The notes below the pieces were generated by a model. The model did no database searches, had not been told where the DNA came from, and was given only the letters and a program-made list of their open reading frames with translations. DNA of 64,000 nucleotides from Neoarius graeffei (lineage: Eukaryota; Chordata; Actinopteri; Siluriformes; Ariidae), in NCBI RefSeq assembly GCF_027579695.1, contig NC_083583.1:17696257-17760256 (forward strand). Direction: 5' to 3'. How positions within the stretch are numbered: position 1 is the first letter of the stretch; every line of letters begins with the position of its first letter. This document shows, one piece after another, positions 22,622 through 62,764 of this stretch. The position numbers and the translations under genes were made by a program.

Positions 22622-24035
22622 CAGAACACTTTTTCCAAGGAATAAAAACACGTGTTCTATTCCCTTCTAATGGGTTTCATTCATTTGGTTTGATAGCAAG
22701 CAATATTGTGAACATATCGCTTATACTACATGTATTATGTCACTCCACCCAGTGGAGAATGAGTGCTGAATATGGTTTATGATATTGCATGGTTGTCAAG
22801 ACAACATGACGTCACACGTCAGAGCTGATGCGAAGATTCAATGTGAGAGTTTTCTGTTGCGCATACGCAGAAGCATTTCTTTGTTTGCCAACGGAGCCCA
22901 CAGTAAACTGTCGCAGTGAACTGAAAATGCCACAAGATACGAATTACACGTAAAATTTCCATGCTAGCGAGTGATGGTGACAATTTGTAAACAAATCTAT
23001 AATTTTTCCATCAAATGTGCATAATAATAATAAGAATAATAATGGCTTTTTTCATGGTATATCAGACATGTTCCATTCAGTTAGCATGACACTGAACTCG
23101 TCTTCGACTCCTTCAATGTCATGCTCGCTGAATGGAATACATCTCCTATACCACTCAACACCAGCCAATATTATTTAATTATTATTATTACTACTACATT
23201 ACAGGCATTCTTATCCAGAGCGACGTATAACAGGACCCTGACATACCCACTGCTGTGGGTAGCCCGGGGAGCAATCAGGGGTTAGGTGCCTTGCTTAAAG
23301 GAACTTCAGCCATTCCTGCTGGTCCTAGGAATCGAACCAGCGATCTTTTGGTCCCAAACCTGCTTCTCTAACCTTTAGGACATGGCTTCCCCTATTATTA
23401 TCATCATCATCATTTCAATCAGTTACTGGAAAATAATTGTTTCATTGCACCAAAACACACATGCAAACACAGTCTTGTACATTTATTTAAAAATCAATTA
23501 TCTCATCTCATTCATCTCATTATCTCTAGCCGCTTTATCCTGTTCTACAGGGTCGCAGGCAAGCTGGAGCCTATCCCAGCTGACTACGGGCGAAAGGCGG
23601 GGTACACCCTGGACAAGTCGCCAGGTCATCACAGGGCTGACACATAGACACAGACAACCATTCACACTCACATTCACACCTACGGTCAATTTAGGCCCTG
23701 TCCACACGGCAACGGATTCAGGTGAATCCGATACAATTGTTTATCGTTTCGGCCTGGCGTCCACACGGCACCGGCGTTTTGGGTGCCCCAAAACGCAATC
23801 TTTTGAGAACGGGTTCCAGAGTGGAAAGATCTGGCAACGATGCCGTTGCGAAGTCGTCTGGATGAGTAGAACGGATTTGTTTACGATGACATCACAACCA
23901 CATGACTGTCAGTGCTTCACGCCGGGTAGAAGTGTAACGAACTCGATGCGAGTTGTCAACAAATCCTATAACTTGGTTCATGAAACGCGCTTACAAAATA
24001 TTTTCACTGTGAATATTTATTGTGTAATGGTGCAA

Positions 24036-36000: not shown

Positions 36001-39000
36001 GCCTTTAACTATCTCCCAAATTACCCCAAAGCTTAGGTGGTGTTTACATCAGACCGTATCCGTCTCGTTTTCGTCGCGGATGCACTGTCTGTTCACATTA
36101 AAATGCCGGGAAACGACTCCACAGGCGGAACAACTTGAATCCGCCAGTGCCCACGTATTCAACCCAGTACGTATCTGATCCGGTGCTGTGTAAACATTGA
36201 GGAACGAGGATACGCAGTGCTGAGCTCTAGCTGACGTCGTCATTGGACAACGTCACTGTGACATCCACCTTCCTGATTCGCTGGCGTTGTTCATGCCACG
36301 TTGGTCATGTGACGCGACTGCTGAAAAATGGCGTGGACTTTCACTTCCTGCTATTTGTCCCGAATCACTGCTCGTGCGCTTCACTCGCGCGCTCTGTGAG
36401 CTGCGCAGGGCCAGAGTGCGCACCCTCCAGAGGGCACTCGCTGTTCAGGGCGGAGTGATTTGGAGCGCAGGATGCCTGCGGAGCCGAGCGTATCCGTGTA
36501 TTGGCGTTGCTGTGTGCACGCGAATCGTGTATTGGCGTTGCTGTGTGCACGCGAATCGTTTTAAAAACGTCAATCTGATGATCCGCTGATACGGTCTAAT
36601 GTAAACACCACCTTAGCAGCTAGATTCAACATGGGGGCGGAGCCAGTAGAAGCTACCTAATCTGTTTGGTCAGAAGGTTTTGTGTGAATAACAGCAGCAC
36701 TGAATGTCAGCTGTAATTCAAATCCCAGGTTTGTATATAATGCGCTCATTCTAATATGTTATCATTTCTATAAGAACCATGGTGGGTGCGTCACATACTC
36801 TCAAAATGACTGACATACATATTAGGGGGGGGAAAATGTTATTTCATATAGTCATTGTTATGGTGATGCTTTCTGTAAGGAGACATAATAGGAATAACGA
36901 ACTAATGCAGACGTTTTGCGAATATTCTGTAAAACGTAACTACAAATGTATAAAAAATATAAAAGGAGAAAAAGAAAAAAAAACCCACACACCACACACA
37001 CACACGATTTTATTAGAAAATAATCATCTTCCAGGCAATAAAGTGTTATCACATCACCTGGTCATTGATTAGTTTCCCATAACAACACGTACCAAAATGT
37101 TTTATTCCTTACCTATGGTCGACATAGAAAATACTGTGAATCACAGAGACAAGTTTGCTCTCTAATGTATAAAAAGATCTCCAGTTTTAAATATTTGCAT
37201 CTTAATTTCTCATCTCATTATCTCTAGCTGCTTTATCCTGTTCCACAGGGTCGCAGGCAAGCTGGAGCCTATCCCAGCTGACTACGGGCGGGGTACACCC
37301 TGGACAAGTCGCCAGGTCATTACAGGGCTGACACATAGACACAGACAACCATTCACACTCACATTCACACCTACAGTCAATTTAGCCCATGTTTACATTA
37401 GACCGTATCAGCGGATCATCAGATTAACGTTTTTAAAACGATTAGTGTGCACACAGCAACACCAATACACGATTTGCGTGCACACAGCAACACCAATACA
37501 TGGATACGCTCGGCTCCGCAGGCATCCTGCGCTCCAAATCACTCCGCCCTGAACAGCGAGTGCCCTCTGGAGGGTGCGCACTCCGGCCCTGCGCAGCTCA
37601 CAGAGCGCGCGAGTGAAGTGCACAAAGTGATTCGGCACTGAGCCGCTGTGTGTGTGATCCCAGCGCACATCACTTACCACTTGCAAGTGGAAGGATGGCA
37701 AGCCTAAAGACAATCATAACTACACAATGGGCAGTATTTGCATCAGTATTTGCAGTATTTTCATACTTTTATACTCTTTAAGGAAAGGTGATACAAGGCG
37801 GAAGTCCGCGCCGTTTTTCAGCAGTCGCGTCACATGACCAACGCCAGCAAATCAGGAAGGTGGATGTCACAGTGACGTTGTCCAATGACGACACCAGCTA
37901 GAGCTCAGCACAGCGTATCCGCGTATCTCAATGTTTACACAGCACCGGAGCTGACACGATCTGGATTGAATACGTGGACGCTGGCGGATTCCCGTTTCCC
38001 GGCGTTTCCAGGCGGTTTAATGTAAACGGACAGTGCATCCGCGAAGAAAACGAGACAGATACGGTCTAATGTAAACTTGGCCTTAGAGTCACCAGTTAAC
38101 CTAACCTGCATGTCTTTGGACTGTGGGGGAAATCGGAGCACCCGGAGGAAACCCACGCGGACACGGGGAGAACATGCAAACTCCGCACAGAAAGGCCCTC
38201 GTCAGCCACGGGGCTTGAACCCGGACCTTCTTACTGTGAGGCGACAGCGCTAACCACTACACCACCGTGCCGCCCCTGCATCTTAATTTAACTAACATTA
38301 TTTATTATTGTTTAGTATGACCATTCTCAGTTCTTGCCACGATGGGTCTGTTCTAATACAAGCAAGCTGTGTGTCGAATATTGCACTGATCCCACAATTT
38401 TGTTGGTGAAATAACCCAAATGCCCAATTTCTTTCCTCAAACTTACTTAAAATAGAAGTGCATTTAACATCTTTACCAGTAAGTCATAAGGGTTGCAAAA
38501 ATTGCACTCAAATGTTCAGTGCACTACTGTGTTTCAATATGGGCCAATATTTAATAAAGCCTGACTGATAAACTGGTGTCCTGATATTATTGGCTGATAT
38601 CATAGATAAAACGGTATCGGCGTTTATAATGGCTGATAAATGACAATTTAAAAAAAAGAAACGGGGAGATGGAAGATCCTTGGATCCTTCAATCATGAGT
38701 GTGAGGAGTGTTGTCATTGTATGTTTGTCCACCAGAGGGCACACTGCAACATCACTGTGAGCAAGACTGTTGCCACAAATCACAACAATTAGCTGACCCA
38801 AGCAGCTCAAAGAAGAGTCAAGAACACCTTTTTTTTTTTTTTTATACACTTGATGGTTATTCATCAAACTTTCAATATGTTTTGTTAGTACTTTTGTTCA
38901 AAAGTATTATCTATTTATGACAATAAAAGTTTATTTTTAAAGGTCCCATGGCATGGTGGTTTGTTGATGCTTTAAACGGGCTCGTGGAGGTTTCCGGATG

Positions 39001-41984
39001 TTATATCCAAAGCCTTTCTCGAAATGAACCCTCAGCACGTAGATATAGCCTCCTGGGAGAAAGCCCCATTTCAGCGCTTTTCCCAGTGCGTCGTTTTGCT
39101 AATGAGAAGCAGGAGGCAGGGAAGGGTAGAGGGTGGGGGCGGGTCTTATCATTAATATTCATGACATGTAAACGTGTTACCTCTGATTGGCTAACAGCAC
39201 TGTGACGCTACCTCCAGTGGGTCAGAACAAGCGGATGTGGGTGTCTTACTATGGCGAGAGAGAAGGAACAAACCGCGAAGGGAAAAATACCGCGCGCTGA
39301 CGTCATTAAGGTGCAACGCGAGGAAATAAAATAAATTCAACAAATGTTTGGGTTTTTACTGAACAAACAAGCAAATAAAATGAACGAGTGACTTAAAAAA
39401 AGAATGTGGGTGTCTTTGTAAAAACTGTTTTGATTGGCTATTATAACAGAGCATGCTGCATGCTTTTTGGTTTTGTAGCGCAGAGTACCTGGCTAACTGC
39501 AGGAAGCGGTTAGCTGCACAGCTAATGTAGCCATTGCAAGGCTAACGTGGCACCGATTTTAAAACACGGCAAAACGACTTAACAGTTATACACTTACTTG
39601 TTTGGTGTTTGTGGCTGATGCAGCAGGGATGCTTGGTACGGACCCAGGCTTCAGTGACAGTTGATGTGCAAAACCTGCCCTGTACTGTCCCAAGTTGTGG
39701 AAACATTCATCAGGAAAATGCTTCCGACAAACGTACACCGTCTTAGGTAGACTCGACGGCGTATTATTGGAGTAAATAAAATTAAGCCACTGCGTCTTCA
39801 GGGGCTCTCCCGTCGGCAGTAAAAACAGACTCCTTTCTGTGTTGTCACATCCATGCACAGCGCAACTTCCATGTTTGGTGGCAACTTTTGAGCTGGGCGG
39901 GCAATCCATACAGTGGGTGGGAATCCAGAGGGGGGGCGTGGGGATCATCTCCCTTGCTGACGTAGGTAAGGGAAGAGTTTATCAACGCGGCGTTTTGATG
40001 CGCCATTCTCAAATGTTGGGCATAGTTTGGTTTACACATTATGAAATTTCTAGCCACTGGGGTGACTTAAGAAGGTCAGAGGAACTCATTTTAACGTTAA
40101 AAAACCTCAGAAAGTGAAAATTTCATGCCATGGGACCTTTAAACTGCATTACATCATGTTATCATAGTGAGGACTCTTCAATAACTACACAACACATATT
40201 AAGGAAAGGGGCCCTGTATCTGGGGGCCAGGACTGGGCAAATGAGTTGAATCTCTTTTTGAACAGATTTGACTGTGCCACCCCACCCTCCCCCACTCACC
40301 ATAGTCCTGACCTGTCTATCACTCCACCACCCTCCCTCTCCCCTCATAATACCTCTGACACCAACAGCTCCCTCCTCACACCACATCACCCCCCTTCGAT
40401 TCCTGCCAGACCAATCCACACACTCCACCCCCAACCTCCCTCTACAGGACTCACACCTCGGCTACACCCCTCGCCTCTCCATAACAGCTGATCAGGTGTT
40501 GAAGGAGCTGAGGAGGATCAAGACGAGGAAAGCTGCTGGCCCTGATGGTATCAACTCCAGACTGCTTAAGGACTGTGCAGATCAGCTCTGTGGGATTCTT
40601 CTGTACATTTTCAACCTGAGCCTCAGTCTGGAGAAAGTTCCACTTCTGTGGAAAACATCACGTGTGGTTCCAGGTCCCAAGATTACGCACCCCAGGGAGC
40701 CCAACCACTTTCGGCCAGTAGCTTTAACGTCTCACCTCATGAAGATCATGGAGAGGATTGTTCTCTCCCACCTCCGACACCTGGTGAACAGCGAGATGGA
40801 CCCCCTGCAGGTCGCATATCGACCGGGCATTGGTGTGGATGACGCTGTCATTTACCTGCTACACCGGTCACTTTTGCACCTGGAGGGCACTGGGAGCACT
40901 GTGAGAATCATGTTCTTTGACTTCTCCAGTGCTTTCAACACAATCCAGCCATCACTGCTTAGGGGGAAGCTGGAGGGAGCTGGTGTCGACTGCCACCTGG
41001 CTGCATGGATCATCGACTACCTCATTAACAGACCGCAGTATGTGAGGCTCCGCGACTGTGTGTCTGATGTGGTAGTCTGCAGCATGGGGGCTCCACAGGG
41101 TACAGTGCTCTCTCCTTTCCTCTTTACACATCTGCCTTCAGCTACAACACGGACAGCTGCCACCTCCAGAAGTTCTCTGATGATACAGCCATCGTTGGAG
41201 CCGTGTCAGAGGGGGACGATCTGGAGTACAGAGAGGTCATCACCAACTTTGTCGCCTGGTGCGAACTGAACCACATGCGCATCAACACCAGCAAGACAAA
41301 GGAGGTGGTGATCGATTTCAGAAGGACGGTTTCCCAAATTGCACCAGTGAACATCCAGGGTTTGGACACTGAGATCGTGGAGGAGTACAAATACCTGGGT
41401 GTTCACCTCAACAACAAACTGGACTGGACTAACAACACAGATGTCCTGTACAAGAAAGGCCAAAGTTGTCTCCACCTCTTGAGAAGACTGAGGTCTTTTG
41501 GTGTGTGCAGGATACTGCTTAGGAGTTTTTATGACTCTGCAGTAGCATCAGTGATTTTCTACGCTGTGGTCTGCTGGGGCTGTGGAAGTTCAGAGAGGGA
41601 CAGGAAGAAACTTAATAAACTGGTCAGAAGGGCTGGCTCAGTCTTGGACTGTCCTCTGGACTCCATTGAGGTGGTGGGTGAGAGGAGGATGTTAGCCAAG
41701 CTGACCTCAATCATGGATAACCCCTCTCACCCCCTACATGAGGCTGTGGGGGCTTTAAGCAGCTCTTTTAGTAGTAGACTGCTACACCCACGGTGTAAGA
41801 AGGAGAGATACCGCAGGTCATTCATACCGGCTGCTGTCAGACTGTATAACACCCACAACTTGTAACGTAGCACCAATAACCTGTTTGTCGTTATATTTGC
41901 ACTACTTCACCACTACTACCTCTGCCATCTCTCATCGATGCAATTATGTGCAATAATCTAGGCCTTAAACTATTTTTATGCATA

Positions 41985-42049
<65 letters not shown>

Positions 42050-48039: not shown

Positions 48040-51000
48040 GTATATAGCGCCTTTCAAAAAACCCAAGGACGCTTTACAATTATAGACAAGGAAAGAAAAA
48101 AATAATAATAAAATAAAAATAAATATGCTCTCCACCATCAAATACTTTCATTCCATATTTTATTGCTTTCTTTTTTTGTATTTTTTGGGGTTTTGTTTTC
48201 GAGTAGAGTTTTTATTTCGTCCTCAGTTGGTTCAGAAGGACACTCCGCCATTTTGTTTTTCTCTACTCACGGTAGATGAGCTGATATCCTAAAAGTAGAG
48301 TAGCTAATCAGAGTGCGCGATTGATCATATCCAGTGAATGTGGACAGAATAACAGTCATTATACTGGAATGCTAAATACATCCAAAACTTTCATTCTGTA
48401 CATGAGGCCAAGGTGTGATAAAAACCACACAGCTTTGCATTGTGCCATAACTTGTTCTTTATTAAAACACGTCGAGGGTGGAGTGGAGTGTTTTACCTGT
48501 TCTGTCACATCCTGGATCATTCTTGGCAAAAAGTACTCTTCAACACATCTGTGAACATGAAAGGTATCACTGCTCACACTGGAGGCGTACTTAGAGGAAA
48601 AATCCACCCTGAACAAGCTTCATGATGAACATGTGATCTTCACTAGCTTCCAAATTGTACTTTGTCATGACTTCGTTCCCCACAATACAAGCGAGATTAA
48701 CCCTTACTTCATCTCTATCTAAAAAGAGCAATGCAGCGGCGCTTTAGTCCTTTAGTCTGTCCAGAACTCCCAGCTCCTCGTCTGTACACTCTGCTCAAAC
48801 AGAGCAGCTCCAAAAGCTTCCGCTTTCATCCTAATATCACCATCATACTCACTGTCTCGAAGATTTCTAACTAACCTAGCTTAAACCTAATCTAACTAAC
48901 ATATATACACACACCTGTGAGTGTTTAGTCTATGTCTATTTCTTATCTAGAGTGTTTATATTGTTTATTTCAGTTATTCTATTTTTCTTTATTGCATTGC
49001 CTGTTTGCACCGTGGGTCAGAGAGGACTGAAATTTCATCTGGGCTGTATGTCGAGCATATATAGCATATTTGACAATAAAGTTGACTTGACTAAACAAGC
49101 TGAGTCTCTGCCATAACTCGGCGCAACTGCGTCTTATAGCTGCGCTGCATTCCGGAAATCTGAGTCCGACATTTGCACCACCGTCTCCACTGTTTCATAT
49201 TTCAACATAGCTAGAAATTGATAAGTAAGAAAATAAGCTCTTGTGCTTTTTTTTTTAAGTGCTAGCAGCAAAATCTGAACATTATCCTACGGAAGTGTAT
49301 TGCTGCCACACCAGAAAAATGAAAGAAAATCAGTATCACATATTATTATGCATACAGGACACTTTTTCGATGGAATAAAAACATGTATTCTATTTCCTTC
49401 TAGCAAGTTTCATTAATTTGGTTTGATAGCATACAATATTCCTAGCATATCGCTTATCCTACGTGTATTACGTCACTCTACCCAATGGACCCCCCAGGCC
49501 TCCTTGGGTTAGTAGAGTAGCCAATCAGAACGCGCGATTGCTCATATCCAGTGAATGTGGATGTAATAAATGGAAGTATTTGATCAGGAAAGAGTGGTTT
49601 TTTTTAATATTCTTTTACAACGTGAAAAATATATTGTTACAACAATAAACTTTTCATGTTATTACGTGATACTGATTTTTTTTCTGGTGTGGCAGCAATA
49701 CACTTCCATATTATCCCGTATGTTTGAGATAACTGAATGACCCCCCATTAAATGCCATTGTAACTGCACTAGCAATAACGACGTCCCTCTGTAACACCAG
49801 AGCAGCAGATAAGCACTAACACAGGAATAATAAAAATGCCGCATCAACCAACAAAATTGCACTGGAATCACTAAGCAGATCACGTATCTTCCTTGTGGAC
49901 ATTTATTTCTGCATGTTTAATAAACAGGGTGGAGTTTTCCTTTCACAAAATGTTCCACAAATTCTGAATAATTAGTAGACAATGCTGTTCATGTACCTGG
50001 GCTTACTCCAAGGAGAAAACCAGCGAAATTCTCTGTTGTTGCCATAATTTGCCAAAAGCATTTTAGGCCGGATCAGTAAAATCTTCCTGTTAAGAAGGCG
50101 AAAGCAAATTCCATCTTTACTTGGGTCTGTACGAACATGTATCCACATGATCAAGCTAAAAGTATAAATCACATGCTGTACAAATACGACTTGTACTTAT
50201 TTGATTTGTCAATACCAAAGACTGACTTGTTCAGGAACAGGACTCTGCAATTATAGCGAACATTGTGATGCATAACAGGCCTGCAGGAGGGAAAAAAAAA
50301 AAAAAAAAAACCACACACACAAAGCAAATTAGCAATTAATTAAATATTACACGACAGAACACAACAAGTGAGCAAGTTTAACACTCACATGCCAACATCG
50401 CAGATTATATCCTGCGTCTCAGGGGACTCCAGCAGCGCCTTGAGGACTTGGAAGCAGTGCAGAAGTGTGTCGGATTCATAGAAGTGATCAGCACATCCGT
50501 AGCCACTGATTAAAAAAAAAAAAAAAAAAGCTTTTCCATGAACAGTTATTCTGGAAGTCTTTCAAAGAAGATTTATACTGGCACTGACAGCCTGAGCACT
50601 AAGGCTCAAGTTTAACCCCTTGAAACTCCTAATTATTCCATACTTACAGTTACTAGTTACTGAATGATGAATAATTGCATCTAACAAAGGGTTAATGCTT
50701 CCAGGAAAAAAAAAAAAAAATTATGTGCATTCACACACTACATCAACATAAAATCATACAAATATCACTGAACAAAATGGCAAAGCATGACACACCCACT
50801 GATTCAACCTGATCCCGAGATACGAATGTGACCTGACAAATTGTTTATTTTTAATTAATTTAACTCTCAGCCAAAGATCGGTTGTTTTATTATGCAACAT
50901 GTTCTGAGCTGTAATAAGAAAATAATCATCAACATACGATGAGGGTGAATGTACTGTACATATGATGTCACTTGATGCAAAGTGTAATCACTGTTACCAC

Positions 51001-54000
51001 TCCAACATTGATTACTTTCCACTAACAGCATGTTCTGAAGTTATTTACATTCTGGACAACACAGAAATTTGCTAATGACTGCAATTCTTCATTTCTTAAG
51101 GAATGACAAACCAGACTTTTTATCCGTTTAGAGTTACATGAATTGTTTCAGAACTTCCGCTAAGAATAAAAGTTACTTCCTGTCATCACTTACGTTACAG
51201 CAGCTGTAGACAGTCACTGCTTCACTGTTTTTTTTCTTTCAGTTTGTTTAGGTATAGGTAAAGCATAGGCGTTAACAGAGATATCAGTTTGGCATGCTTG
51301 TAACTGGTCCACGCTGGTCTGATTGCTACTTGTTTGGTGAGTTCTAGTTAAAGGAAGAGTCCACCGTACTTCCATAATGTTCTTCTCTGAATTGAGACGA
51401 GCTGATCCGTACCTCTCCGAGCTTTGCGCGACCTCCCAGTCAGTCAGACGCGCTGTCACTCCTGTTAGCAATGTAGCTAGGCTCAGCATGGCCAATGGTA
51501 TTTTTTGGGGCTGTAGTTAGATGCGACCAAACTCTTCCGCGTTTTTCCTGTTTACATAGGTTTGTATGACCAGTGACATGAAACAAAGTTCAGTTACACA
51601 AATTGAAACGTGGCGATTTTCTATGCTATGGAAAGTCCGCACTATAATAACAGGCGTACTAACACCTTCTGCGCGCTTCGACAGCGCATTGATACCTGCA
51701 CGAGTGAAGGTATCAATGCGCTGTCGAAGCGCGCAGAAGGTGTTAGTACACCTGTCATTATAGTGCGGACTTTCCATAGCATAGAAAATCGCCACGTTTC
51801 AATTTGTGTAACTGAACTTTGTTTCATGTCACTGGTCATACAAACCTATGTAAACAGGAAAAACGCGGAAGAGTTTGGTCGCATCTAACTACAGCCCCAA
51901 AAAATATCATTGGCTATGCTGAGCCTAGCTACATTGCTAACAGGAGTGACAGCGCGTCTGACTGACTGGGAGGTCGCGCAAAGCTCGGAGAGGTACGGAT
52001 CAGCTCGTCTCAATTCAGAGAAGAACATATTTCATTATGGAAGTACGGTGGACTGTTCCTTTAAATCCTTGAAACTTATGTTCACTCAAACATCTCTCTG
52101 TTTCCATAAGGTTATCCTTACTAGTGATGTAATGCTTCATCACCCATTGACGTTACTCTGTCACACACATACAACTCAACTTCTTAAAGGGCATATCACG
52201 GGTAAATTCAGGAGCAAGATGAATGTAATTCTCCTATTTTATATTAAACTTTGGTCAAATATCTGTAACATTCTGCATTCTCTGCAATTTTTTTTACCTT
52301 GCGCAATACCAGAAAAATTCAGTTGAAATCAAGCCACTTGAGGCGAATTCATCCGCCTCTGAAAAAACTTGGCATTTGGATTTCCCGGGAAACACTGCTT
52401 TTCGTGACGTCATCTGTGGGACGCCTCCCTCTGAATCCGACATCAGCGCTGGTTTGTTTATGAGAAAATGACCTGGTGGTTTTCTGCAAATTTCTTCAAC
52501 GTTATTGCGTAATTATTAAAATGGTTAACAGATGTATCATAGGAGGGTGTAGCAACACCAATCATGATGGGATTAGTACTCATCGTTTTCCAAAAGACCG
52601 GACAATGAGAGAGAAATGGGAGCGCTTGGTCTACACAGGCTGTGCACTTAAACCGTGCAAAGCTCGCACAGCCTGCTGGCGCTTCCGCAGATAACGTCAC
52701 GATTCTGGCTCCAGACTCCCTTGGGATTTTTCCAGACGTGTTTTGTTATTTTATTTTTTTCTGCTGTAGACAGACGGCCTTGTGCAAAATGACCCTTCTG
52801 GGTGAGTGTGTAAAGGGACATACTTTCATATAAAAAAAAAAACAAAAAAACACGAAATTGGTCCAGAATATGCCCTTTAAATCCCATCTCCCAATCATTC
52901 AGCTACAACACACTCTTGGATATGGATATTTATCCTATCTATATTCACTGGATATGAGCAATCGTGCGCTCTGATTGGCTACACTACTACTAGGCTATCA
53001 GCTCATATCCCGTGAGTAGAGAAAAACAAAATGGCGGCACGTGTTGCTGAACCGAGGATGAAATAAAAACTCTACTTGAAAACAAAGCCCCCAAAATTTA
53101 CATTTTTAAAAAATATGGAATAAAAAGCATTTGATGGTAAGAACATATCTTTTTTTCATCTCATCTCATTATCTGTAGCTGCTTTATCCTGTTCTACAGG
53201 GTCGCAGGCAAGCTGGAGCCTATCCCAGCTGACTACGGGCGAAAGGCGGGGTACACCCTGGACAAGTCACCAGGTCATCACAGGGCTGACACAGACACAG
53301 ACAACCATTCACACTCACATTCACACCTACGGTCAATTTAGAGTCACCAGTTAACCTAACCTGCATGTCTTTGGACTGTGGGGGAAACCGGAGCGTCCGG
53401 AGAAAACCCACGCGGACACAAGGAGAACATGTAAACTCCGCACAGAAAGGCTCTCGCCGGCCACGGGGCTCGAACCCGGACCTTCTTGCTGTGAGGCGAC
53501 AGCGCTAACCGCTACACCACCGTGCCGCCCCATATCTTTTTTTATTTTTCGATAATGATTATTATAGCATTTTTCACAAAATGCTAGTGTCATTTCGTCG
53601 GTTTGTTTACATTCTAAGTGGAAATGATTGTGTCGGACGTTTTGTATAAAAAGTTTTTATTTATCGAATTTGCAAAAACTAGAAATAAAAATGCTCAGTT
53701 TCTCAAAATCCAGTGAACGTGGATAAAATAAAGCAGTTAATCTCATTGTCCATGGCTTATAGCCATGGCTTCTAGCTGTCAGCTCATGTACGACTCGATT
53801 TCATGGAATAACTGGTCAAATACTCATGTTTGTCCTACAGTAAACTGAGTAACATGTCTGAACATCTGTATCTGCATCAGTGACTGTTGCTCCGGGATAT
53901 CTGAGGCAGAATTTCTCAGGCGGCAGAGACTGACATTCCTAGAGCATACTTTGTTAATTCAACCTCCTTTAGCACAGACAGGTCGAAACCTATCAAGTGC

Positions 54001-54492
54001 AATAAACATCTACTCGGAGAACAACACAGACAAATTCAGCAATCAGCAATTAAACACTTTTCCAATGATTTATCCAAGTATCCACAATGCAAGTGTTTGT
54101 GAATTAGTTGTTACTCTAGAAATGACAAACATATTAGAGTAAGTGCATTAATATCAACAATACAAAGAGATAATGAAGTGCAGTAATTACCAGATTTCCA
54201 GTTCTGGTCCCAGTCTGTACTTGGCACCTTTAGATTTTGCTGTCACAATACCTGTATTAAGGAGTGAAATTAAAATAAATCAGATCAGCACTCACAGCAC
54301 ACACAACACTCTGAAAATGCTTCTCTTACCAACTGCAACAAATCAGGAGACAAAAGATTTGTTTTGCAATAAATCGTCCACTTCGAAACTTGATAAATAA
54401 AACTTACTTTTTAGTATTCTTTGTAAATTGCCATCAAAATCTAAAGCCCATTGGTTCAGAGAACAAGTCGCTAATGTCACTTTCCTCCCCAT
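15970..54492 (-). CDS. nadsyn1: Glutamine-dependent NAD+ synthetase, whole gene (20 coding exons)
   Basis: The enzyme makes NAD+ from nicotinic acid adenine dinucleotide, ATP and glutamine, the last step of the de novo and Preiss-Handler pathways, in the cytosol. The joined exons give 630 codons through exon 19 plus 116 from the last exon, against about 706 residues for the human protein. An N-terminal nitrilase-type amidase domain carries Glu45 (GPELEIC), Lys114 (IRPK) and Cys175 (GSEVC). The C-terminal ATP-pyrophosphatase domain carries SGGVDS at 356-361, the [12 protein letters not shown] stretch and [14 protein letters not shown]. Every junction keeps frame and nearly every intron is GT-AG with a good donor; exons 14 (GTCGGC) and 16 (GTTTGA) have weak donors. 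The start matches the vertebrate MGRKVT N-terminus. The C-terminal tail after FRCIDDEV is unlike the human one and may instead splice to a small further exon. Introns are packed with transposons. Confidence 0.96.
16724..17130 (-). pseudogene. Decayed Tc1 transposase fragment in nadsyn1 intron 19
   Basis: The minus-strand frame includes [19 protein letters not shown], the region around the first catalytic Asp of Tc1 transposases, and a basic [11 protein letters not shown] stretch. Upstream and downstream frames are broken. Confidence 0.65.
17693..17821 (-). CDS. nadsyn1: nadsyn1 exon 19
   Basis: Encodes [20 protein letters not shown] and [13 protein letters not shown], 43 codons. Acceptor CTCAG, donor GTGTCA, phase 0. 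Confidence 0.95.
18130..18745. mobile_element. Tc1-type non-autonomous element
   Basis: Inverted termini GAATTATTGGCACCCTTT and AAGGGTGCCAATAATTCT bracket about 600 bp without a transposase frame. The terminus also occurs at 29748-29766. Confidence 0.65.
18818..18887 (-). CDS. nadsyn1: nadsyn1 exon 18
   Basis: Encodes [20 protein letters not shown] and TDE, matching human [19 protein letters not shown]. Acceptor CTGCAG, donor GTACGG. Confidence 0.95.
19302..19548 (+). repeat. SINE family 1 head, 5' part, split by a hAT MITE
   Basis: Head GGGCAGCATGGTGGTGTAGT to CTTGAGCAAGGCACC, continuing after the MITE at 20488-20650 (CAACTGCTCCCTGGGCACTG ... AATAAAAGGCTTCTTGTTC). Confidence 0.8.
19549..20487 (-). 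mobile_element. hAT-type non-autonomous transposon
   Basis: Termini TAGAGGTCTGCGCGGG and complement of CCCGCGGGAGTGCAGGGCTCTA; 8-bp target duplication CCCCCAAC at 19541-19548 and 20488-20495. Subterminal CCCGCTCCCGC repeats occur at both ends. Only a short N-terminal-like frame ([20 protein letters not shown] at about 20177, minus) is visible. Confidence 0.85.
20488..20650 (+). repeat. SINE 3' part, downstream of the hAT MITE
   Basis: Continues the split SINE; contains TTCAGATGGGTTAAATGCAG and the CTTCTTGTTCTTG tail. Confidence 0.75.
20643..20762 (-). repeat. SINE family 2 fragment
   Basis: Minus-strand GAAGACAATGACCTAATGG-like head to CTTGAGCG, abutting the previous SINE tail to tail. Confidence 0.7.
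20770..21660 (-). pseudogene. Decayed Tc1 element in nadsyn1 intron 17
   Basis: The plus strand reads as the complement of a Tc1 transposase gene: GACATGGACCAGGCCACTCC (WP-PDLNPIE region), CATCATCATACTACCACCAC (VMMWG region) and GTTTGACTCATCAGTCAATA (WSDE region). Frames are broken throughout. Confidence 0.7.
21807..21938 (-). CDS. nadsyn1: nadsyn1 exon 17
   Basis: Encodes [20 protein letters not shown] and the [16 protein letters not shown] helix. The [11 protein letters not shown] motif contacts the nicotinate dinucleotide in this family. Donor GTGTGT. Confidence 0.95.
22019..22125 (-). CDS. nadsyn1: nadsyn1 exon 16
   Basis: Encodes [20 protein letters not shown] and [11 protein letters not shown]. 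The donor GTTTGA is weak, but frame and the short 80-bp intron to exon 17 support it. Confidence 0.93.
22592..22620. repeat. (TAA)n microsatellite
   Basis: About nine perfect TAA units. Confidence 0.9.
23200..23395 (-). repeat. SINE family 2 copy
   Basis: Minus strand: head GAAGCCATGTCCTAAAGG, B-box-like GGTTCGATTCC, and tail near 23200 with CTCTGGATAAGAATGCC. Confidence 0.8.
23508..23693 (-). repeat. SINE family 1, 3' half (split by Harbinger MITE 1)
   Basis: The SINE resumes at 24711-24903. The break is at TTA within CAATTTAGAG, duplicated on both sides of the MITE. Confidence 0.88.
24037..24073. repeat. (AG)n microsatellite
   Basis: About 18 perfect GA units inside Harbinger MITE 1. Confidence 0.9.
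24242..24450 (+). mobile_element. THAP-exon transposon fragment, copy 2
   Basis: Begins TTAAAGACGCCGCC and matches 291-500, including the splice donor. The THAP exon (24317-24396) has a TAA at 24365-24367, so it is dead. The right end is missing. Confidence 0.65.
24711..24903 (-). repeat. SINE family 1, 5' half (split by Harbinger MITE 1)
   Basis: Contains the A and B boxes; continuation of 23508-23693. Confidence 0.88.
25197..26111. mobile_element. Tc1-type non-autonomous element with nested SINE
   Basis: Ends ACAGTACCAGTCAAAAAAGT and the complementary AACTTTTCTTCTCACTGTA; no transposase frame. The interior is interrupted by the SINE at 25408-25775. Confidence 0.65.
25408..25775 (+). repeat. 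SINE family 1, full copy
   Basis: Complete, with a GGATGGATG tail; TTTGATCTCA on both sides is the target duplication. Confidence 0.88.
27640..27860 (+). pseudogene. Tc1 transposase C-terminal fragment
   Basis: Aligns with the end of the 8821-9897 transposase (GTGCTAAACTGGCCTGCC ... CAAGAATGGGAAAGAATTTC ... AAATGTGATGTAACGTAGTG). Several stops; the two other thirds are missing. Confidence 0.6.
27943..28313 (-). repeat. SINE family 1, full copy
   Basis: Complete copy, flanked by AGTTTGTAAGT on both sides (target duplication). Confidence 0.88.
28946..29081 (-). CDS. nadsyn1: nadsyn1 exon 15
   Basis: Encodes [20 protein letters not shown] and ends [14 protein letters not shown], a conserved synthetase motif. 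Acceptor TATAG, donor GTGGAG. Confidence 0.95.
30156..30324 (-). CDS. nadsyn1: nadsyn1 exon 14
   Basis: Encodes [38 protein letters not shown] and the AKELAAQIG helix. The donor, GTCGGC, is weak. A Harbinger MITE ends 27 bp upstream of the acceptor. Confidence 0.92.
30352..30839. mobile_element. Harbinger-type MITE 1, copy 2
   Basis: Same termini as copy 1, with TAA target duplication at 30349-30351 and 30840-30842. It ends 27 bp from the acceptor of nadsyn1 exon 14. Confidence 0.85.
30975..31312. mobile_element. Tc1-type non-autonomous element
   Basis: Imperfect inverted ends: AAAGTTTGCATACCCTCCCC and GGGGGATGCAAACTTTTGTA. No coding capacity. Confidence 0.55.
31629..31898 (+). repeat. SINE-type repeat with third 3' body
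   Basis: Truncated head (GGCGGCACGTGGTTCCGAGT), then TCCGGATAGATTGGGGAGGG and CTAATGGGAGCAGCCGAAAG, as at 12198-12445. Confidence 0.7.
32142..32244 (-). CDS. nadsyn1: nadsyn1 exon 13 (P-loop)
   Basis: Encodes [26 protein letters not shown] at residues 356-361 is the ATP-pyrophosphatase P-loop that binds ATP. Donor GTAAGT, phase 1. Confidence 0.97.
32348..32396 (-). CDS. nadsyn1: nadsyn1 exon 12
   Basis: Encodes [16 protein letters not shown], the start of the synthetase domain, matching human [16 protein letters not shown]. Acceptor CTCAG, donor GTGAGA. Confidence 0.94.
32486..33352. mobile_element. Tc1-type element with nested repeat C
   Basis: Ends TGCATGAAAGTTTACACCCC and complement of GGGGTGTGTAAACTTTTGCA. 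A second repeat (about 32585-33035) with termini TAGCTCATACCGGCC / GGCCTACAGCCGGATGAGCT is nested inside. Confidence 0.6.
33766..35268 (+). mobile_element. hAT transposon (Buster/ZBED-like), internally deleted
   Basis: Termini CAGTGGTTTTCAAAGTGGGG / complement of AGTTTGGGAACCCCTG; 8-bp target duplication CTCTAGAG (33758-33765, 35269-35276). It carries the N-terminal two thirds of a transposase gene. Confidence 0.88.
34064..35123 (+). pseudogene. hAT transposase, frameshifted and C-terminally truncated
   Basis: The frame opens [20 protein letters not shown] and shifts near 34230 into the frame used to 35123. The second part has a BED-type finger ([11 protein letters not shown]...LQRHLVQKH), then the RNase H-like core with [20 protein letters not shown] and [10 protein letters not shown]. 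The end diverges after EVIQF, so the C-terminal dimerisation region and catalytic Glu are absent. Similar to ZBED5/SCAND3-type proteins of hAT origin. Confidence 0.85.
35487..35611 (-). CDS. nadsyn1: nadsyn1 exon 11
   Basis: Encodes [17 protein letters not shown] through the [12 protein letters not shown] linker that joins the amidase and synthetase domains. Donor GTGCGT, phase 2. Confidence 0.94.
35711..35782 (-). CDS. nadsyn1: nadsyn1 exon 10
   Basis: Encodes [18 protein letters not shown] then RCHPHV, 24 codons. Donor GTAAGA. The last six residues diverge from the human protein but keep frame into exon 11. Confidence 0.92.
36036..36612. mobile_element. Harbinger-type MITE 2, copy 1
   Basis: Termini GGTGGTGTTTACATCAGACC and complement of TCTAATGTAAACACCACC; TTA duplication at 36033-36035 and 36613-36615. 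Contains a CpG-rich core with TGTATTGGCGTTGCTGTGTG repeated twice. Confidence 0.85.
37209..37384 (-). repeat. SINE family 1, 3' half (split by Harbinger MITE 2)
   Basis: Resumes at 38083-38275. The break is at the same TTA of the SINE as in the copy at 23508-24903. Confidence 0.88.
37385..38082. mobile_element. Harbinger-type MITE 2, copy 2
   Basis: Inverted relative to copy 1; termini GCCCATGTTTACATTAGACC and complement of TCTAATGTAAACTTGGCC; TTA duplication at 37382-37384 and 38083-38085. Confidence 0.85.
38083..38275 (-). repeat. SINE family 1, 5' half (split by Harbinger MITE 2)
   Basis: Continuation of 37209-37384, with A and B boxes. Confidence 0.88.
38937..40142 (-). mobile_element. 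TTAA-flanked transposon with THAP exon (Kolobok-like)
   Basis: TTAA at 38937-38940 and 40139-40142, and perfect 17-bp inverted termini AAAGGTCCCATGGCATG. The only coding piece is a THAP exon on the minus strand. Kolobok superfamily elements use TTAA and often encode THAP domains; no transposase core is present, so it is non-autonomous. Confidence 0.82.
39598..39948 (-). CDS. THAP-type zinc-finger exon in transposon
   Basis: The frame includes [21 protein letters not shown]...FIYSNN and [12 protein letters not shown], giving a complete C-x4-C ... C-x2-H zinc site. It ends at a strong donor (AAACAA|GTAAGT at 39592-39597). The upstream Met could be at 39948 or 39909 ([14 protein letters not shown]). 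The exon is intact and could be spliced to downstream sequence. Confidence 0.7.
40268..41865 (+). pseudogene. LINE reverse transcriptase, frameshifted
   Basis: First part (to about 41133) has [41 protein letters not shown] and [14 protein letters not shown]. The second part (frame of 41203-41865) has KFSDDTAIV (the catalytic Asp pair), [28 protein letters not shown] and ends [15 protein letters not shown]. The switch lies at about 41128, consistent with a loss of about 5 nt relative to related elements. The endonuclease domain is missing. Confidence 0.88.
41986..42040. repeat. (TA)n microsatellite
   Basis: About 27 perfect AT units followed by TG repeats, in the LINE 3' UTR. Confidence 0.92.
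42351..42482 (-). CDS. nadsyn1: nadsyn1 exon 9
   Basis: Encodes [20 protein letters not shown] and ends SLDDV, 44 whole codons. Its donor GTACGT lies only about 60 bp from the 3' tail of a LINE in the following intron. Confidence 0.95.
43088..43315 (-). pseudogene. Tc1 transposase C-terminal third
   Basis: The frame reads [20 protein letters not shown] through [11 protein letters not shown] to the natural C-terminus GGNTRY. It carries the catalytic Glu region. Other transposase pieces can be followed at about 44260-44690 and 45025-45240 in broken frames. Confidence 0.82.
43414..44256. mobile_element. Harbinger-type MITE 2, copy 3
   Basis: Termini GGTGGTGTTTACATTAGACC and complement; target duplication TCA (43411-43413, 44257-44259). 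The longest copy. Confidence 0.85.
44716..45019. mobile_element. Solo LTR
   Basis: 304 bp beginning TGTGGAAGCGGGGGCATGG and ending GAACTGCTACA (TG...CA), with a perfect 5-bp target duplication CCGAC at 44711-44715 and 45020-45024. An AATAAA lies near 44946. Removing it and one CCGAC restores the Tc1 sequence. Confidence 0.8.
45640..46526. repeat. Repeat C, partial tandem array
   Basis: Two and a half head-to-tail partial copies of the unit seen at 32585-33035, each with the palindrome GGTGGCGCCACC or its variants and TAGCTCATACCGGCC / GGCCGGATGAGCTA termini. Confidence 0.65.
46540..47190. other. Intron stretch with a partial DNA-repeat terminus
   Basis: Starts CAGGGTTCCCACACCTTCTT then TCAAGGAC-type repeats, resembling a hAT-type MITE terminus; the opposite end was not found. 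Confidence 0.35.
47194..47311 (-). CDS. nadsyn1: nadsyn1 exon 8
   Basis: Encodes [19 protein letters not shown] and the [16 protein letters not shown] stretch at the end of the amidase core. Donor GTCAGT, phase 0. Confidence 0.95.
47514..47602 (-). CDS. nadsyn1: nadsyn1 exon 7 (nucleophile Cys175)
   Basis: Encodes [11 protein letters not shown] and [13 protein letters not shown]. Cys175 in GSEVC is the amidase nucleophile that hydrolyses glutamine. Acceptor CTTAG, donor GTACTG. Confidence 0.95.
47730..48350 (+). repeat. Repeat D, copy 1
   Basis: Bounded by TCTATCCACATTCACTGGAT and its complement ATCCAGTGAATGTGGACAGA; includes (ATA)n at 48000-48036. Inverted copy at 52925-53830. Confidence 0.6.
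48497..48548 (-). CDS. nadsyn1: nadsyn1 exon 6
   Basis: Encodes [17 protein letters not shown], phase 0 at its 3' end (donor GTAAAA); matches human [15 protein letters not shown]. Confidence 0.94.
48757..49092 (+). repeat. Retroposon 3' tail
   Basis: Contains GCACCGTGGGTCAGAGAGGA and ends ACAATAAAGTTGACTTGACT, a 3' end common to fish retroposons. No reverse transcriptase frame. Confidence 0.5.
49280..49715. mobile_element. Short element with about 50-bp inverted ends
   Basis: GGAAGTGTATTGCTGCCACA at 49291 and its complement at 49689-49708, extending into GATACTGATTTT on the inner side. The interior shares sequence with repeat D (ATCCAGTGAATGTGGAT). Confidence 0.6.
49997..50086 (-). CDS. nadsyn1: nadsyn1 exon 5 (catalytic Lys114)
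   Basis: Encodes [16 protein letters not shown] and the FRWFSPWSK stretch. Lys114 in RPK is the second amidase triad residue. Donor GTACAT. Confidence 0.95.
50227..50280 (-). CDS. nadsyn1: nadsyn1 exon 4
   Basis: A short exon coding [17 protein letters not shown]. Acceptor CTGCAG, donor GTCAGT. The intron to exon 3 is only 108 bp. Confidence 0.94.
50389..50505 (-). CDS. nadsyn1: nadsyn1 exon 3
   Basis: Encodes [15 protein letters not shown] and QDIICDVGM, part of the amidase domain. The acceptor follows a long pyrimidine tract (poly-A on the plus strand at 50512-50529); donor GTGAGT. Confidence 0.95.
51348..52064. mobile_element. TTAA-flanked long palindromic (foldback) element
   Basis: Arms of about 345-355 bp are inverted repeats around a loop of about 10 bp at 51698-51707. 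I count about five mismatches and one 7-bp gap. The ends read TTAAAGGAAGAGTCCACC and the complement of GGTGGACTGTTCCTTTAA. Mirrored open frames on both strands ([13 protein letters not shown]...; [13 protein letters not shown]...) come from the symmetry and are not evidence of genes. Confidence 0.88.
52194..52880 (+). mobile_element. TTAA-flanked transposon with THAP start (Kolobok-like)
   Basis: TTAA at 52194-52197 and 52877-52880; inverted termini AAAGGGCATATC / GAATATGCCCTTT. Contains a THAP start exon and no transposase. Only 129 bp from the palindromic element. Confidence 0.75.
52520..52694 (+). pseudogene. THAP domain N-terminal part in transposon
   Basis: ATG at 52520 opens [20 protein letters not shown], then [16 protein letters not shown], a standard THAP N-terminal half (C-x4-C, F-P, W). 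After that the frame runs into unrelated residues to a stop, and the C-x2-H half is missing. Confidence 0.65.
52925..53830 (-). repeat. Repeat D, copy 2, with nested SINE
   Basis: Inverted copy of 47730-48350 (AAACAAAATGGCGGC block, TATCGAATTTGCAAAAACTA block, ATGGCTTATAGCCATGG). Interrupted by the SINE at 53157-53532, with CATATCTTTTTTT on both sides as target duplication. Confidence 0.65.
53157..53532 (-). repeat. SINE family 1, full copy
   Basis: Complete copy in nadsyn1 intron 2, same strand as the gene. Confidence 0.88.
54191..54251 (-). CDS. nadsyn1: nadsyn1 exon 2 (catalytic Glu45)
   Basis: Encodes residues 29-49, ending GPELEIC; Glu45 is the general base of the amidase triad. Acceptor ACAG, donor GTAATT. 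Confidence 0.94.
54408..54492 (-). CDS. nadsyn1: nadsyn1 exon 1
   Basis: ATG at 54492 opens [19 protein letters not shown], closely matching the vertebrate N-terminus. The donor is GTAAGT at 54402-54407, phase 1. Confidence 0.95.
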
Positions 54493-54712: not shown

Positions 54713-56174
54713 CAGGGGTCACCAAACTTTTTTCTCTGGGGGCCACATTGTCGTTCCTGACTGTGATGGGGGGCCGGGGTCAGGTCAGCTATATAACATA
54801 GAATTGTATGACCCAGACAAATATGACTACCAGCAGGCCTCATTATGTCGTAGAGATTACTAGCCTGGCACAGCCATCCCCACTACTATATCCATACTAC
54901 TATATCCCACACTACTATATCAACACTACTATATCAACACTTGATTCCTGGCACATATTTGTTTATCTTTACTAGTGGTTTGCAAAAGTAGTAATCGAGT
55001 CTTCACACTTTGTTTTAATTTGAAATACCACAGATATTCCATTTATTTATTTTCTAATAAAAATAACATCAAAGCTGTCAAGGTAAGAAACATCTGCCTA
55101 GTTGAGGTGATTGACACTGGCAAAGGTGAGTGGAAAATTATAAATTGTAGGTAGGCCTGTTGATATTATTAATAATATTAATAATTGTGTGCAGCACTTA
55201 ATAAAGGTCAAATAAATAGGCCTAGAAAATAAATACATTTAAAAAAAACAGTGAAATTATAATAATATGAGCAATAGATCAACTAGCCAGCTCTTATGCC
55301 TATCCATTTGAGCATGTTCAGTAAACATTTTTTAGGTCAAGGTGAAAATGAAATGAGCAGTAGGCCATTTACAGGTCAAAACTAAAGCATAATACAGAAT
55401 AATGGGAATCAAAATCAGTAGTATATGTAGGTGAGCTGGATTTGTACTTGTTGATTTGTACTTCTTGTACACACCTCCTCAGCCACAGCAAGCATGCATA
55501 CTTTAACAAAGTCCCCATCAGTAAACGGCTTTCCATGGTGAGCTACCTTATAGCTAGCTCGGACAGCAGCCTGGTTGATCTGGGTTTGGCGAAGGAATAC
55601 ATTCTGTTGTGCAGCCAGTCCGCATTTCATCCTCCGAATCCTGTCTTCTCTTGTTTGCCCTCGCAAACTAGCATACTCTTTGTGGCGGGTTTCGTAGTGA
55701 CGACGCAGATTATATTCTTTGAAAACCGACACACTTTCTTTACATACAAGACAAACTGCACGGTCCTTACACTGAACGAAAAAATAATCGGTGGTCCAGT
55801 GTTCTTTAAAAATTCTGCACTCTCTGTCAGCTTTTCGCTTACCGCTAGCCATTTTGCTGTCCTGAACACTGACAGTTCTCTGCGCATGTGCTGCCTGTCA
55901 CTGCTTGATCGCGAGCATATGACGAAAATTCGGAAAATATGAATAGTTCATTTTACAACTAAATATAAATTTTAATTGATAAAATCAACAAAATGCAAGA
56001 TGCAGACATGTTATTATTTGCCAAAAAGCAATTTAAAAAAAATAGGCCATAACCACTTTTGGGGATTGCCTCATAGGGCCGGTTCAAGTGGTGGGGGGCA
56101 GAGGGGCTGGGGGGCCGGTCAAAGGGGGGTGGCGGGCCGGAGTCAGCCCGCGGGCCGGAGTTTGGTGACCCCTG
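54713..56174 (-). mobile_element. hAT transposon upstream of nadsyn1
   Basis: Termini CAGGGGTCACCAAACTTTTT and complement of GGAGTTTGGTGACCCCTG; 8-bp target duplication CGTTAAAC (54705-54712, 56175-56182). It carries one transposase fragment on the minus strand. Confidence 0.88.
55415..55852 (-). pseudogene. hAT transposase N-terminus (GTF2IRD2/ZBED-like)
   Basis: The frame opens MASGKRKADRECRIFKEHWT and has a BED/C2H2-type finger (CLVCKESVSVFKEYNLRRHY...H), then RASYKVAHHGKPFTDGDFVK and CMLAVAEEVC, the start of the hAT domain of GTF2IRD2- and EPM2AIP1-like proteins. It then runs into unrelated residues; the catalytic core is deleted. Confidence 0.82.
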
Positions 56175-60944: not shown

Positions 60945-61119
60945 GATTTGAGAACAAAGGGACAGTATGAGGGGTGTGCCGAACCCTCATCACTTGTCTG
61001 TTTCTGCAATAAACCTTCTTTCTCTTGCCAAAAGACGAGACTGGTGTTGGTGTTTGTCATTTTTCCATGACAGCGGGTAGAACATGATAATAGTGTCTAC
61101 TACAAACAGAGTACCATTA

Positions 61120-62724
61120 CAGTGGGGCAAAAAAGTATTTAGTCAGTCACCAATTGTGCAAGTTCTCCCACTTAAAAAGATGAGAGAGGCCTGTAATTTT
61201 CATCATAGGTATACCTCAACTATGAGAGACAAAATGAGGAAAAAAAATCCAGAAAATCACATTGTCTGATTTTTAAAGAATTTATTTGCAAATTATGGTG
61301 GAAAATAAGTATTTGGTCAATAACAAAAGTTCATCTCAATATTTTGTTATATACCCTTTGTTGGCAATGACAGAAATCAAACATTTTCTTTAAGTCTTCA
61401 CAAGGTTTTCACACACTGTTGCTGGTATTTTGGCCCATTCTTCCATGCAGATCTCCTCTAGAGCAGTGATGTTTTGGGGCTGTCGCTGGGCAACATGGAC
61501 TTTCAACTCCCTCCAAAGATTTTCTATGGGGTTGAGATCTGGAGACTGGCTAGGCCACTCCAGGACCTTGAAATGCTTCTTACGAAGCCACTCCTTCGTT
61601 GTCCAGGCAGTGTGTTTGGGATCATTGTCATGCTGAAAGACCCAGCCACGTTTCATCTTCAATGCCCTTGCTGATGGAAGGAGGTTTTCACTCAAAATCT
61701 CACGACACATGGCCCCATTCATTCTTTCCTTTACACGGATCAGTCGTCCTGGTCCCTTTGCAGAAAAACAGCCCCAAAGCATGATGTTTCCACCCCCATG
61801 CTTCACAGTAGGTATGGTGTTCTTTGGATGCAACTCAGCATTCTTTCTCCTCCAAACACGACAAGTTGAGTTTTTACCAAAAAGTTCTATTTTGGTTTCA
61901 TCTGACCATATGACATTCTCCCAATCCTCTTCTGGATCATCCAAATGCTCTCTAGCAAACTTCAGACTGGCCTGGACACATACTGGCTTAAGCAGGGGGA
62001 CACGTCTGGCACTGCAGGATTTGAGTCCCTGGCGGCGTAGTGTGTTACTGACGGTAGCCTTTGTTACTTTGGTCCCAGCTCTCTGCAGGTCATTCACTAG
62101 GTCCCCCAGTGTGGTTCTGGGATTTTTGCTCACCGTTCTTGTGATCATTTTGACCCCATGGGGTGAGATCTTGCGTGGAGCCCCAGATCGAGGGAGATTA
62201 TCAGTGGTCTTGTATGTCTTCCATTTTCTAATAATTGCTCCCACAGTTGATTTCTTCACACCAAGCTGCTTACCTATTGCAGATTCAGTCTTCCCAGCCT
62301 GGTGCAGGTCTACAATTTTGTTTCTGGTGTCCTTTGACAGCTCTTTGGTCTTGGCCATAGTGGAGTTTGGAGTGTGACTGTTTGAGGTTGTGGACAGGTG
62401 TCTTTTATACTGATAACGAGTTCAAACAGATGCCATTAATACAGGTAACGAGTGGAGGACAGAGGAGCCTCTTAAAGAAGTTGTTACAGGTCTGTGAGAG
62501 CCAGAAATCTTGCTTGTTTGTAGGTGACCAAACACTTATTTTACCGAGGAATTTACCAATTAATTCATTAAAAATCCTACAATGTGATTTCCTGGATTCT
62601 TTCCCCCCATTCTGTCTCTCATAGTTGAAGTGTACCTATGATGAAAATTACAGGCCTCTCTCATCTTTTTAACTGGGAGAACTTGCACAATTGGTGGCTG
62701 ACTAAATACTTTTTTGCCCCACTG
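61120..62724 (-). mobile_element. Tc1 transposon, nearly intact
   Basis: 1605 bp, the usual Tc1 length, with TA at 61118-61119 and 62725-62726. The terminal inverted repeats (CAGTGGGGCAAAAAAGTATT...) match over more than 100 bp with only a few differences. One long transposase frame on the minus strand. The best preserved element in the window. Confidence 0.95.
61390..62358 (-). CDS. Tc1 transposase, stopped about 18 codons early
   Basis: 322 residues opening [20 protein letters not shown]. Two HTH regions ([40 protein letters not shown]), a GRPR-like hook (LPRSGAPRK), and the DD34E catalytic set: [23 protein letters not shown] and [14 protein letters not shown]. The frame ends at TAA (61390-61392) after CENLVKT. 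The next codons stay in frame up to a TGA and resemble the usual C-terminus of about 340 residues, so this is probably a single nonsense change. Whether the shortened protein is active is unknown. Confidence 0.93.
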
Positions 62725-62764
62725 TATATGCTGCTTGGTCTTGTCCCTTTACAATGGTGGCTTT

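Follow-up and report, generated by a model that had tools for sequence, protein, structure and literature searches.

Palindromic transposons and edited RNA

Kolobok transposons generate TTAA target-site duplications and have 5'-RR and YY-3' termini, the latter setting them apart from piggyBac elements, which also duplicate TTAA (PMC9587614). The THAP motif is one of three that are usual in Kolobok transposases, and the T2-MITEs are described by the combination of TTAA and AGGRR (PMC6004289). Palindromic transposons have already been published as a source of edited double-stranded RNA in both zebrafish and Xenopus. In zebrafish 62 of the 63 adenosines in one palindrome of the ANGEL repeat are edited. 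The abundant editing in this species is ascribed by the authors to its many palindromic repeats, although they found no enrichment in particular repeat families (PMC8096273). The majority of Xenopus editing sites lie outside annotated repeats, and among those located in repeats Kolobok-T2 is reported to account for 50.2% in X. laevis and 38.7% in X. tropicalis, the Kolobok-T2 elements being capable of forming long double-stranded RNA (PMC10636886).

A palindrome in intron 2 of nadsyn1

The element described here lies within a 64-kb window, the whole stretch of Neoarius graeffei DNA that was analysed, and occupies positions 51348-52064 (717 nt), including a TTAA at each end. An inverted-repeat search of 50800-52700 returned two pairs (51377-51701 with 51704-52028, 325 nt, 98% identity, and 51348-51379 with 52033-52064, 32 nt, 97%) and no further pairs of at least 20 nt beyond these two arm blocks; gapped alignment merges the two into a single near-perfect palindrome. 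Counting the TTAA, the left arm (51348-51697, plus strand) measures 350 nt and the right arm (51708-52064, minus strand) 357 nt, and they enclose a centre or loop of 10 nt (51698-51707). The arms differ by five substitutions over 350 aligned positions (345/350 identical, 98.6%) and a single 7-nt gap, with a sixth mismatch located inside the centre. The seven bases by which the right arm is longer sit, as judged by eye, between short ATG repeats. The original prediction of a near-perfect palindrome of about 717 bp at 51348-52064 is thus correct almost to the base, and its description of arms of about 350 bp with some five mismatches, one 7-bp gap and a loop of about 10 bp agrees with the gapped alignment in every point.

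A scan of the whole window for ungapped palindromes with loops of 0-19 nt found two places above the score limit besides this one, namely a (TA)n run near 42014 and, near 23096, a weak site. When an arm was compared with the 64-kb window by blastn it matched only itself and its partner, and no second copy was found there.

The host gene was traced by tblastn with the human NADSYN1 sequence, which yields successive minus-strand exons from 54492 down to 16141 once a few low-scoring, out-of-order matches near 33.4 kb, 45.9 kb, 47.1-47.4 kb and 62.1 kb are dropped. Intron 2 extends over 50506-54190 on the minus strand, with its GT at 54190 and its AG ending at 50506, which confirms the predicted intronic location; the palindrome is situated 842 nt upstream of the acceptor of exon 3.

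Several other candidate mobile elements are discernible in the window. Upstream of nadsyn1 exon 1 a hAT-like element at 54713-56174 has inverted ends CAGGGGTCACCAAACT, an 8-bp direct repeat CGTTAAAC seen by eye on both flanks, and a 160-aa open frame on the minus strand (55415-55897). A Tc1/Sleeping Beauty-type element at 61118-62726 is bounded by inverted repeats of 210 nt that are 88% alike, and contains a 343-aa open frame (61390-62421, minus strand) in which HTH_SB, HTH_Tnp_Tc3_2 and DDE_3 score above their Pfam cut-offs. Two overlapping open frames at 40262-41865 look by eye like a non-LTR reverse transcriptase split across frames. A 347-aa open frame at 34080-35123 matches DUF4371 slightly under the Pfam cut-off (29.3 versus 32.1 bits) and is perhaps the remnant of a hAT or ZBED-type transposase.

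Terminal signature

The symmetry of the palindrome stops exactly at TTAA on both sides (51348-51351 and 52061-52064); the bases outside are not symmetric and the flanks are unrelated. The TTAA flanks that had been predicted are therefore present at both ends and coincide with the limits of symmetry. They are read as the two copies of a duplicated target site, as in Kolobok elements, a reading made from the filled site only. The ends read TTAA-AGG...CCT-TTAA, continuing after the TTAA as AGGAAGAGTCCACC and AGGAACAGTCCACC, and have the AG...CT termini that correspond to 5'-RR...YY-3'. AGGAA adjoins TTAA at both ends, in agreement with the AGGRR of T2-MITEs. With a length of 717 nt, terminal inverted repeats and no Pfam domain in the open frames scanned, the element also has the properties of a MITE; 16 open frames of at least 30 aa overlap it, and the seven of them that were scanned contain no Pfam family.

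TTAA-bounded inverted repeats were also sought throughout the window as pairs of 14-mers that match at 12 or more positions and are separated by 60-5000 nt. TTAA gave 11 pairs, among which several are dispersed repeats in inverted copies. Between 1 and 19 pairs were obtained with each of 11 other palindromic tetramers, so that a TTAA pair alone constitutes weak evidence. The case rests on three points: the palindrome boundary coincides with TTAA at either end, the termini fit, and there are neighbours with like ends. Comparisons with sequence collections and literature were negative: exact arm patterns had no match in prokaryotic and viral contigs, nor did the palindrome by blastn among plasmids and phages, collections that have little bearing on a fish element, and a literature search on the terminal letter strings found no paper.

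Neighbouring blocks with similar ends

The neighbour that most closely shares these ends is a decayed block at 48591-49945 whose inverted ends read AGGAAAA(A/C)TCCACCCTG with a TTAA altered by one change bordering each side. The motif AGGAANANTCCACC, allowing up to one mismatch, has four matches in the window, which are the four ends of this block and of the palindrome, and 40 permuted patterns gave a mean of 0.4 matches and a maximum of 2; as the motif was composed after the ends had been seen, this control demonstrates rarity and is not an independent prediction. Judging from these ends, the block is a possible older relative of the palindrome's family. Four of its 25 open frames of at least 35 aa were scanned, and the two Pfam matches obtained (E 0.047 and 0.089) fall below the curated cut-offs and were taken as chance.

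Two further blocks carry THAP sequences. The first, at 52184-52880 and thus 119 nt from the palindrome, is bounded by TTAA followed by AGGGCATAT, starts and finishes with TTAAAGGGCATAT, and includes a fragment comprising the start of a THAP domain at 52521-52691 (PF05485, E 1.7e-6, above the Pfam cut-off). Its ends were taken from blastn output; it failed the TTAA/14-mer scan, a separate local alignment picked an internal match instead of the ends, and its inner end sequence is unlike that of the palindrome. The second, at 38937-40142, has perfect inverted ends of 19 nt counting the TTAA, which is followed by AGGTCCCATGGCATG, and a THAP domain within 39586-39978 on the minus strand (PF05485, E 2.7e-11, above the Pfam cut-off); it probably represents another Kolobok-type family. 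Both match the palindrome only over TTAA-AGG and then diverge, and for this reason they are at most members of other families, their apparent link to the palindrome being circumstantial and connecting no transposase with it by sequence.

Predicted RNA structure

As RNA, positions 51340-52072 have a folding energy of -689 kcal/mol. Twenty dinucleotide shuffles averaged -203.4 kcal/mol (sd 7.3) and not one reached the stability of the real sequence, which rules out chance. The hairpin predicted for the nadsyn1 strand comprises 348 base pairs and includes unbroken helices 199 and 113 pairs long; of its 194 adenosines, 187 are paired. In silico, then, the transcript of the element forms the long hairpin that was originally proposed. 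Given the zebrafish and Xenopus precedents, editing of this intron by ADAR would be expected and unsurprising; a Dicer product from the palindrome is a guess.

Age of the element

The arms diverge by 1.4% (5/350). The ratio of observed to expected CpG is 1.01 in the palindrome versus 0.55 in the whole window, which suggests youth, although the ratio is higher still in no fewer than eight other stretches of 717 nt within the window. Taking 2.5e-9 to 1e-8 changes per site and year for each arm, and assuming that the two arms did not differ when the element inserted, the age would be roughly 0.7 to 2.9 million years; mismatches inherited from the progenitor would lower this figure and conversion between the arms would raise it. 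The near identity of the arms had been attributed to either recent origin or gene conversion. Recent origin fits both the arm divergence and the CpG ratio, and youth would be a simpler account of the likeness of the arms than conversion.

Origin and alternative explanations

The most likely explanation, held with a probability of roughly 0.8, is that the palindrome is a recent, non-coding, palindromic (fold-back) MITE, most probably of the TTAA-duplicating Kolobok superfamily, that was moved in trans. A transposase made elsewhere, presumably of Kolobok type with a THAP domain, would have acted on the two ends and placed the element into a TTAA, which was duplicated in the process. The progenitor was probably palindromic before it inserted, since neither end is truncated and each arm extends as far as its TTAA; the palindrome may have originated through a strand switch in the course of repair or replication. 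A model from work on Angel elements, set out in a review, has single-stranded copies fold on themselves before being re-incorporated (PMC12628747). The five substitutions and the 7-nt gap could have arisen since the insertion or been inherited. The transcript would fold into a hairpin of about 348 bp, which ADAR would be expected to edit and which would then be lost together with the intron; the palindrome can be explained without any host function.

An element of the same kind could also belong to a different superfamily, piggyBac or hAT, which is considered improbable. piggyBac shares the duplication of TTAA, and ANGEL, itself a palindromic zebrafish repeat, is filed under hAT; the AG...CT termini of the palindrome, however, are of the RR...YY form that separates Kolobok from piggyBac, and piggyBac was ranked lower on this ground in spite of the TTAA (PMC9587614, PMC8096273). 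For hAT the flanking bases were compared by eye, and only two of eight positions agree outside the TTAA, or three of eight when it is included. An 8-bp target-site duplication is the hallmark of hAT elements, and hAT was accordingly ranked lower as well. A decidedly more remote explanation is that the palindrome is an artefact of assembly or library preparation, such as a long read that has doubled back, or else a local inverted duplication that involved no transposon. Fold-back artefacts do yield near-perfect palindromes with short centres, but against both readings stand the limits of symmetry exactly at TTAA, the transposon-like termini and the unrelated flanks. The recurrence of the terminal motif, inverted, in the independent block at 48591-49945 and the differences between the arms (five substitutions and the 7-nt gap) likewise speak against an artefact.

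The least probable of the alternatives, and one to which hardly any credence is given, is that the hairpin is under selection within nadsyn1, in splicing control or as a source of small RNA, with selection or conversion keeping the arms alike. The 348 predicted base pairs would suit such a role, and two copies of ANGEL located in zebrafish lncRNAs are reported to have undergone compensatory changes (PMC3636048). The palindrome, on the other hand, lies 842 nt from the exon 3 acceptor, and its five arm differences are uncompensated and so provide no hint that pairing is selected, with the proviso that a change from G-C to G-U would still pair in RNA. A search of 50800-53200 against Rfam at gathering scores returned no match, which also counts against a selected hairpin.

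Building on the preferred reading of a Kolobok-like MITE, a broader and frankly speculative scenario can be sketched, although it is thought unlikely to hold. It envisages, in this fish, a lineage of fully palindromic Kolobok elements whose arms would be kept alike by repeated arm-to-arm conversion or by hairpin-templated copying during transposition, and whose intronic copies would act as long, edited, self-paired RNA that alters the output of the host gene, in this instance nadsyn1.

Comparison with known systems

Taken alone, a single copy of such an element is ordinary, and similar arms are a common feature of fish genomes, a point that is given no weight here. A near-intact copy of such size nevertheless offers a clean test case for whether the symmetry of palindromic MITEs is due to youth or to arm-to-arm conversion, and, lying in a conserved gene, it might serve as a natural reporter of editing.

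The locus had been called a foldback DNA transposon, a term that holds for its shape, as a TTAA-flanked inverted-repeat transposon that folds back, and does not hold for the classical Foldback (FB) class. FB elements, for example those of Drosophila, resemble the palindrome in their long inverted arms with little in between. The arms of FB elements consist of tandem sub-repeats, whereas the arm examined here matches only itself and its partner in the window by blastn, and the classical FB class was set aside. Zebrafish ANGEL is a high-copy DNA transposon whose long inverted repeats form a stem-loop (PMC3636048, PMC8096273, PMC12628747). Its likeness to the palindrome is one of shape and description, and it is assigned to hAT (PMC8096273). 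The end signature of the palindrome points to Kolobok instead, and the nearest described counterparts would be the Xenopus T2-MITE and Kolobok-T2 elements, which, compared by description only, share with it the TTAA target and the terminal AGGRR (PMC6004289). Kolobok-T2 is also like the palindrome in its ability to form long double-stranded RNA, which in Xenopus is reported to be edited (PMC10636886), and in the palindrome itself the arms available for such pairing span nearly the whole length of the element.
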